Shown here: positions 6,147 through 8,082 of the stretch, piece after piece
Layout: every line of letters begins with the position of its first letter
Numbering within the stretch: the stretch's first letter is position 1
DNA from: Sedimenticola thiotaurini
Lineage (GTDB): Bacteria; Pseudomonadota; Gammaproteobacteria; Chromatiales; Chromatiaceae
Length of the DNA: 34,958 bases
Assembly: GCA_011051715.1 (NCBI GenBank)
Contig: DRKP01000024.1
Span: forward strand, 1-34,958
Reading direction: 5' to 3'
Made by a program: the position numbers and the translations under genes
The notes under the pieces: model-generated
The model's database searches: none
Told to the model about the DNA's origin: nothing
Seen by the model: the letters and a program-made list of their open reading frames with translations, nothing else

Positions 6147-6170
6147 AAGAATGATTAGCATTCAAATGCT
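6147..6170 (-). promoter_or_regulatory. Fur-box-like operator of feoABC
   Basis: AAGAATGATTAGCATTCAA (6147-6165) matches 12 of 19 positions of the classical Fur box and contains the inverted arms GAATG/CATTC. It overlaps a second inverted repeat, AGCATT-CA-AATGCT (6157-6170). Overlapping hexamer arrays of this kind are typical of Fur-bound DNA. The site covers the predicted -10 of the feo promoter, which fits repression by iron-loaded Fur. Confidence 0.7.
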
Positions 6171-6380: not shown

Positions 6381-6410
6381 GCAAAAAAAAGCCGCCCGGG
6401 GAGGGCGGCT
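6381..6410 (-). terminator. Intrinsic terminator of the predicted small RNA
   Basis: On the minus strand, GCCGCCC (6403-6409) pairs perfectly with GGGCGGC (6391-6397) across a 5-base loop; the flanking A-T pair (6410/6390) extends the stem to 8 bp. Eight T residues follow directly (6390-6383). In the plus direction no T-tract follows, so the orientation is clear. There is no protein gene ending here on the minus strand, which is what exposes the small RNA. Confidence 0.88.
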
Positions 6411-6522
6411 CAAGTTGGAGGAGATGCGATATGAAAACCGCACTGTCGCGGAGCAGCTGCTGCGGACTCCACGACGAAACGGCGGTCTGCCGTTTCACCA
6501 CCCGGCGGATGACCAAGTGGTG
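6383..6522 (-). ncRNA. Predicted sigma-54-dependent small RNA, about 140 nt
   Basis: Inferred from four features in the correct order on one strand. (1) A sigma-54 promoter at 6533-6548 places the 5' end near 6521-6524. (2) Three consecutive hairpins follow: stem 1 CACCA/UGGUG (near 6518-6522 with 6497-6500), stem 2 GAAACGGC/GCCGUUUC, a perfect 8 bp with loop AGACC (6476-6496), and stem 3 GUCGUGGAG/CUCCGCGAC, 9 bp with one G-U pair (6445-6475). (3) A roughly 34-base unpaired region (6411-6444) contains UUUUCAU and CUCCUCC, complementary to a Shine-Dalgarno plus AUG. (4) An intrinsic terminator with U8 ends it. No minus-strand reading frame with a ribosome site is seen. The arrangement is that of an Hfq-type trans-acting regulatory RNA. 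I recognise no known RNA family. Confidence 0.65.
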
Positions 6523-6532
6523 TTAAACTATA

Positions 6533-6548
6533 TGCATTGATCGTGCCA
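6533..6548 (-). promoter_or_regulatory. Sigma-54 (RpoN) -24/-12 promoter
   Basis: The minus strand reads TGGCACG-ATCA-ATGCA against the consensus TGGCACG-N4-TTGCA. All positions match except the first T of the -12 box, and the invariant GG and GC are exactly 10 bases apart. A transcript would start about 12 bases past the GC, near 6522, and run toward the terminator at 6391-6409. The divergent neighbour on the other side encodes a sigma-54 activator, as expected for a sigma-54 promoter with a local regulator. Confidence 0.78.
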
Positions 6549-6618: not shown

Positions 6619-6732
6619 TTATCGTGGCTTTTTCTCTCTTTCATGCCTCGAAGAGTCCGATTTTATCCCTGATTACCGCCAGAAATGACATAAGATCGAG
6701 CCAATGAGCGCCAATAATGGCAGGTGGTTGCC

Positions 6733-8082
6733 ATGGTTCCTGTGAACGACACTGTCAAAACAACGGCACCCGGATCCGTTTCGGCCCAGGTGACCGGCAT
6801 ACTCGAGGGGATCGCAGATCCCGCACTGCTGCTGGCCCCCGACTACCGCATCCTTGCGGCCAACCAGGCCTATCAGGAGCGCTACGGCGGTGGCGAACCG
6901 GTCGACGGGCGCTTCTGTTTCGAGGTCTCCCACCACATCCGCCATCCCTGTTATCGCGAGGGCGAGCCCTGTCCGATGCGGCTCGCCCGGGACAGTGGCG
7001 AGCCGCAGCGGGTGTTGCACATCCATCACACGCCACGGGGAGAGGAGCATGTGGAGGTGGAAGGTCGCCCGATCTTCGACCAGGGCGGAGAGCTGTTGTA
7101 CCTGGTCGAGATCGTGCGCCAGACCCGCACCGCGGCGCTGCAGCCGGAGGCCACCGGGCTGGTGGGACGGGCGCCGGCGTTTCTGCGCATGCTGTCGCTG
7201 GTGCAGCGGGCGGCGCCGAGCGAGACCCCGGTGCTGCTGCAGGGGGAGTCGGGCACCGGCAAGGAGCTGGTGGCCCGGGCGATCCATGATCAGAGCCTGC
7301 GGGCGCGGGCGGCATTCGTTCCCGTGGAGTGTTCGGGTCTGACCGAGTCCCTGTTCGAGAGCGAGCTGTTCGGCCATCAGCGGGGTGCGTTCACCGGTGC
7401 CCACGCCTCCAAGGAGGGGCTGGTGGAGGCGGCCAGCGGCGGCACCCTGTTCCTGGATGAGATCGGTGACGTGCCCCTGGGGCTGCAGGTGAAACTGCTG
7501 CGCCTGCTGGAGACCGGTACCTACCGCCGGGTCGGCAGCGTGGAGTCGCGCCAGGCCGACTTCCGGCTGGTATCGGCCACCCACCGGGACCTGAAGGCGA
7601 TGGTCGAGGAGGGAAGCTTCCGCCGCGACCTCTACTACCGCATCAGCGTCTTCCCCATCCAGCTGCCGGCGCTGAGGGAGCGGCTGGAGGATCTGCCTCT
7701 GCTGGCCGAGACCCTGCTGCAGCGCATCCGCGGCGCACGCGGCAAGCGGTTGTCGCCCGAGGCGCTGGCGCGACTGCAGGAGCACCCCTTTCCGGGTAAT
7801 GTACGGGAGCTGCGCAACATCCTGGAACGGGCGGCGCTGCTGGCAGATGGTCGGTGGATCCAGCCGCAACACCTGCCCGAGGAGCTGGGGGGCGAACCGG
7901 CAGCCACCGCCCGGTTGCCACTGGATGGAGACCGGATCCTGCCCCTCGACGAGCTGGAGCGGATCTACCTGGCCCGGGTGGTGGCCCGTTTCCCGGGGGA
8001 TCGCAGGGAACTGGCCCGGCGGCTCGGCATCAGCGAGCGGACCCTGTTCCGCAAGCTGCAACGGTTGCAGGGTGAGGAGTGA
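6733..8082 (+). CDS. Sigma-54 enhancer-binding regulator with Cys/His-rich PAS domain
   Basis: A 449-residue transcription activator. The N-terminal PAS-like domain (about 16-130) carries a striking run of Cys and His: C62, H67, H68, H71, C73, C80 within [18 protein letters not shown] and following residues. This suggests a metal, haem or redox sensor rather than a phosphorylation receiver. The AAA+ domain (about 142-375) has Walker A GESGTGKE (171-178), an intact sigma-54 contact loop GAFTGA (218-223), Walker [12 protein letters not shown] and the [13 protein letters not shown] arginine region. A Fis-type helix-turn-helix ends the protein ([20 protein letters not shown]). The ATG at 6733 is preferred because AGGTGG precedes it by 5 bases; a GTG three codons earlier (6724) is the alternative. 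The predicted sigma-54 small RNA is divergent and is its most likely local target. Confidence 0.92.

Follow-up and report, generated by a model that had tools for sequence, protein, structure and literature searches.

Introduction

Within the 34,958-nt stretch of Sedimenticola thiotaurini DNA analysed here (the window), a sigma-54-type promoter points away from the gene of an enhancer-binding protein (EBP), and no convincing protein gene was found on the strand that it faces. The locus therefore raises the question of which transcript this promoter serves, which signal would govern it and on what its product might act. A preliminary description had proposed an unannotated small RNA (sRNA) with the adjoining EBP as its probable activator, and had already noted the missing protein gene; we followed this proposal through promoter, fold, conservation and genomic neighbourhood.

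Architecture of the sRNA gene

The features of the locus are collected in Table 1. The pattern TGGCACG-N4-WTGCW has a single match in the window, namely TGGCACGATCAATGCA, and 4 of 100 shuffled sequences contained one, so that the -24/-12 promoter first proposed for the minus strand could be confirmed; the predicted start and the strong intrinsic terminator likewise agree with the proposal. Folded from the predicted +1 (6522), the RNA reaches -72.4 kcal/mol compared to a mean of -46.3 kcal/mol for dinucleotide shuffles (z = -8.0), which supports the folded RNA of about 140 bases in the initial proposal. Its inner arrangement had to be revised: the hairpins put at 5, 8 and 9 bp are predicted to comprise 10, 8 and 10+2 bp, and a fourth hairpin takes up much of a tract of roughly 34 bases that had been regarded as unpaired, leaving about 12 nt (CUCCUCCAACUU, 6423–6412) free between hairpin 4 and the terminator in the predicted fold. 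This unpaired stretch contains the 3' end of the conserved core UAUCGCAUCUCCUCC, an anti-Shine-Dalgarno (anti-SD) tract CUCCUCC at 6423–6417, so that the predicted RNA displays an unpaired CU-rich seed together with a terminator and U tail, as expected of an sRNA that base-pairs with Shine-Dalgarno sequences.

Table 1. Features of the sRNA locus, with positions in the window
Feature	Position	Strand	Remarks
sRNA gene	6383..6522	minus	about 140 nt, predicted +1 to end of U8 tail; fold, covariance-model homologues, covariation
Intrinsic terminator	6383..6411	minus	9-bp stem and U8; helix retained in 9 of 9 genomes
Conserved core UAUCGCAUCUCCUCC	6417..6431	minus	identical or near-identical in most homologues
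Hairpin 4	6424..6443	minus	7 bp, predicted; 3' strand belongs to the conserved core
Hairpin 3	6445..6475	minus	10+2 bp, predicted; GCAGCAGC loop at 6463–6456; covariation in stem
Hairpin 2	6476..6496	minus	8 bp, predicted fold
Hairpin 1	6497..6521	minus	10 bp, predicted fold
Sigma-54 promoter TGGCACGATCAATGCA	6533..6548	minus	GG-N10-GC
Proximal putative FisR site CGCCAGAAATGACA	6677..6690		8 of 10 positions of TGCCA-N4-TGGCA
Distal putative FisR site CGCCAATAATGGCA	6709..6722		9 of 10 positions of TGCCA-N4-TGGCA; 32 bp from the proximal site
fisR-type gene	6724..8082	plus	PAS_4, sigma-54 activation and Fis-type HTH domains; invariant C65, C76, C83
Fur-box-like site	6147..6165	minus	promoter region of feoAB itself, between sRNA terminator and feoA; a neighbour, outside the sRNA

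Overlapping the sigma-54 promoter is a 19-codon open reading frame (MSKFTNPLTSELARSMHIV, minus strand, 6582–6523), preceded by AAGGAG, a good ribosome-binding site. Visual inspection of the sequences upstream in two related genomes (G010 and G057) revealed no counterpart, so that it probably arose by chance.

Conservation in related genomes

With a covariance model built from four sequences, strong or synteny-backed homologues of the sRNA were found in 9 of 210 genomes of the family, spread over seven genera. A class-wide scan of 274 genomes added one further match (G342), which we rejected because it represents the terminator that follows a prepilin-like gene. In six other genomes the RNA lies beside the same activator gene, equipped with promoter and terminator, and most loci share the gene order argS-SPOR-feoC-feoB-feoA / sRNA / fisR (EBP) / methyltransferase-CLC-PPK2, in which the position of feoA was established separately. 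The RNA is divergent from fisR in the six loci where both share one contig; in the seventh genome (G084) RNA and EBP are on two contigs and their adjacency is deduced from shared neighbours. Sites of the sigma-54 type, whose background frequency is 3e-4 per position at a score of at least 9 of 12, stand at this position in all seven FisR/sRNA loci, the one in G084 being the weakest. The expectation that promoter, stems and terminator would persist in relatives that keep the EBP gene was thus borne out in seven of seven genomes, taking EBPs of at least 60% identity over the whole match.

Compensatory changes, which the preliminary description had suggested looking for by covariance search, exceed the controls: two-sided changes occur in 6 of 15 pairs, with 12 two-sided cells compared to 3.6 in shuffles, counted on a model-fitted alignment that is biased towards its own structure, and structures slid along the alignment score far worse than the predicted one. 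The strongest conservation resides in the core, outside the variable stems. The loop of hairpin 3 is retained in four genomes and partly elsewhere, and the RNA of one genome (G061) is divergent and weakly folded (z = -1.8).

The predicted control by sigma-54 applies to the seven FisR/sRNA loci but does not extend to genus g74, where two genomes (G073 and G110) keep the RNA and have neither the neighbouring FisR nor the sigma-54 promoter nor the tandem sites described below. The role of the RNA is therefore not tied to FisR alone. The upstream regions of the g74 loci (L184 and L185) share AAATATCAATGC and GTGAAATCAGTA, which perhaps form a different promoter.

The neighbouring activator

The activator is, by its sequence, a FisR-type EBP. 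It contains the Pfam domains PAS_4, Sigma54_activat and HTH_8, a receiver domain is not among its Pfam domains, and its translation may in fact begin at 6733, where the first in-frame ATG lies. Its three regulatory-domain cysteines are invariant in the alignment and recur as the same motif in Cupriavidus metallidurans. The corresponding residues of FisR from C. pinatubonensis are reportedly C53, C64 and C71, from a paper of 2017, with the same spacing as found here, 11 and 7. Orthologues of the gene have neighbours that fit sulfide oxidation: one (L035) is divergent from a metallo-beta-lactamase-fold gene (a putative persulfide dioxygenase), an SQR-like fusion and TauE, two (L040 and L041) are divergent from sulfide:quinone oxidoreductase (SQR), which for L041 was confirmed against solved SQR structures, and others adjoin cydA (cytochrome bd). 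Domains, invariant cysteines and this sulfide-oxidation gene set of the orthologues together match FisR, which is why we read the activator as such; in the window itself, fisR neighbours the sRNA and not sulfide-oxidation genes.

FisR, an established sigma-54 activator, received its name in Cupriavidus; in Acinetobacter baumannii, where the protein is without the PAS-domain cysteines, it is the sulfide-responsive driver of a divergent pdo-sqr operon (PMC7315123); FisR of C. pinatubonensis forms a tetrasulfide cross-link (PMC8469610). By analogy, sulfane sulfur would be the signal for FisR here. SQR is present in all five sRNA genomes searched, suggesting that the host is a sulfur oxidiser. No clear sigma-54 promoter was found at the sqr genes of these five genomes, and we rejected sqr as a sigma-54 target there.

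Tandem sites upstream of the promoter

Upstream of the sigma-54 promoter, all seven FisR/sRNA loci carry two copies of TGCCA-N4-TGGCA (at least 8 of 10 positions each), 31–32 bp apart, which begin 113–189 bp upstream of the -24 element in the six loci where promoter and sites share one contig. What is new here is this tandem pair at every FisR/sRNA locus. Since these seven loci also served to discover the motif, they do not constitute an independent test of it. Informative are the control DNA, in which 764 kb contained one such pair, and the two g74 loci (G073 and G110) without FisR, in which none was found. The same pair also occurs at two FisR loci (G059 and G089) upstream of a sigma-54 promoter that faces a gene for a cytochrome-like membrane protein. 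The conserved pair thus supplies putative EBP sites of the kind a sigma-54-dependent sRNA should have upstream, ties the sRNA to the neighbouring FisR and strengthens the earlier suggestion that the adjoining EBP is the activator.

Alternative explanations

The position of the RNA next to feoA invites the reading that it is the 5' leader of feoAB with a conditional terminator (an attenuator) rather than a free sRNA. It lies on the same strand as feoA and adjoins it in most genomes, about 90–140 nt away in some, and the feo synteny persists even where FisR was lost. However, all genomes that have feo genes carry a Fur-box-like site between the terminator and feoA, which gives feoAB its own Fur-like promoter and argues that the sRNA is not its leader; in G110 a 3.6-kb insertion separates sRNA and feoA, with both retained, in G061 the RNA is present while feoB was not found in the locus, and the best-conserved part is the anti-SD core and not alternative stems. 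We consider a feoAB leader quite unlikely. It is unlikely, too, that the sigma-54-driven RNA works through protein binding instead of pairing, as a decoy that captures Hfq or a CsrA-type regulator: this would account for several stable hairpins and for the recurring GCAGCA loop, but by eye we saw no conserved GGA-loop or A-rich repeat, and conservation peaks in the anti-SD core.

In reverse complement, the core looks like a Shine-Dalgarno sequence with an ATG behind it, and the plus strand could hence carry a small peptide gene (GGAGGAGATGCGATATG) of which these are the ribosome-binding site and start. The encoded peptide is conserved in neither length nor sequence, ranging from 6 to more than 50 codons, and promoter, terminator and activator sites all suit the minus strand, which renders this reading highly improbable. 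It is also very unlikely that the sRNA is activated by another EBP, with FisR as a mere neighbour: the genome does encode other activators, given 13 matches to the EBP of the window at E <= 1e-40, yet the tandem sites go along with a FisR gene next door and are also found upstream of other sigma-54 promoters linked to FisR.

Proposed mode of action

We consider it likely that the element encodes a trans-acting sRNA which, under the control of sigma-54 and a FisR activated by sulfane sulfur, blocks translation starts, probably together with Hfq. From the computed gene and its conservation, promoter, tandem sites, FisR-type activator and the hfq gene encoded in the genome, we infer transcription, signal, mode of action and targets as follows. 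Sulfide oxidation would raise the level of persulfides and polysulfides, which would modify FisR at the three cysteines of its PAS domain. From the two upstream sites, FisR would then drive sigma-54 RNA polymerase to produce an RNA of about 140 nt ending at the intrinsic terminator. The exposed CUCCUCC of this RNA and its conserved flank may pair with target mRNAs at their ribosome-binding site and start codon, probably with the help of Hfq, and thereby repress their translation.

With somewhat less assurance, we think it probable that this represents the first sRNA under direct control of a sulfane-sulfur sensor, that in one bacterial group the RNA replaces the divergent protein targets of FisR and adds post-transcriptional repression, and that the TGCCA-N4-TGGCA tandem is the FisR binding sequence, a prediction which is directly testable. 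If true, an RNA arm would be added to bacterial sulfide and persulfide sensing: with an RNA as the divergent sigma-54 target of FisR, the persulfide response would include repression at the post-transcriptional level. Conserved sRNA gene, sensor-like neighbour and paired sites together suggest that these sulfide-oxidising bacteria probably adjust protein production by RNA as by-products of sulfide accumulate.

Complement searches yielded no conserved target. Apart from the sRNA itself, the 20-nt complement of the core matched three unrelated sites with three mismatches each, among them the start of a protein-repair-methyltransferase-like gene; a full-length target complement was accordingly rejected. 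Sites matching the seed GGAGGAGATGC in nine genomes, most of which were read in eight, fall nearly all within genes. The one clear gene start belongs to an Fe-S subunit gene (G000, C13), dismissed as a conserved target because five of the nine genomes with the sRNA have no homologue at the cut-off applied.

Relation to known systems

No Rfam family matched the RNA at gathering threshold, which sets it apart from CrcZ, GlmY/GlmZ and NrsZ, likewise driven by sigma-54; the preliminary description, too, could name no sRNA that it resembles. Qrr (RF00662) had no gathering-level match in the window and none in permissive scans of six loci. The family mmgR/suhB (RF00519) scores 21–27 bits against a gathering score of 41, and these permissive matches are owed to a generic 3' module, a UCCUCC tract followed by a terminator. 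We rejected membership in mmgR, SorY, JA04 and the betaproteobacterial toxic sRNA, all of which remain under their gathering scores, and kinship with NcS25 of Burkholderia, whose paper reports no upstream sigma-54 motif.

The Qrr sRNAs of Vibrionales fold into several hairpins, and qrr1 lies beside luxO. They are sigma-54-dependent and activated by an enhancer-binding protein, LuxO (PMC10162802), and they share with the present RNA this predicted mode of control and the multiple hairpins. They differ in that the Pfam domains of the activator here include a cysteine-bearing PAS domain but not a receiver domain, that the signal would be sulfur and that the RNA has no Rfam match to Qrr. The unpaired anti-SD seed is shared with AbcR1/AbcR2 (alpha-r15) and NfeR1 of Sinorhizobium; the CUCCUCCC motif with which AbcR1/2 repress translation is nearly the same sequence (PMC8844928), although AbcR1/2 are under LsrB and RpoH1 rather than sigma-54. 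Among the papers searched, mostly open-access ones, a sulfide-responsive sRNA was not found.

A close parallel is the FisR regulon of Cupriavidus and A. baumannii, with a divergent sigma-54 promoter beside a FisR-type activator gene and, for Cupriavidus, invariant PAS-domain cysteines. Its known targets are protein operons (pdo, sqr, tauE), whereas the divergent target here is an RNA. The divergent target of one activator thus varies between relatives, with cytochrome or sulfide-oxidation genes in some and the sRNA in others. FisR exceeds the cut-off in 13 genomes of the family, of which seven have the sRNA, four the cytochrome-like gene and one an octahaem-cytochrome-like region, with none seen in the last. 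In the FisR tree, the proteins encoded at sRNA loci are not resolved as either one clade or several.

At four loci (L011, L012, L013 and L321) a cytochrome-type membrane protein (MEFIGLYPTW..., CSNCH haem motif), which matched no Pfam or NCBIfam family, is divergent from FisR behind a sigma-54 promoter. In L012 and L013, this promoter and the cytochrome-like start codon are separated by a long leader, possibly a regulatory leader RNA, in which a G+C-rich hairpin (GUGGGCGCCCC...) is very stable. At a further locus (L320, genome G226), the FisR orthologue faces a sigma-54-like promoter followed, further away, by a multihaem-cytochrome-like reading frame, which may be another FisR target.
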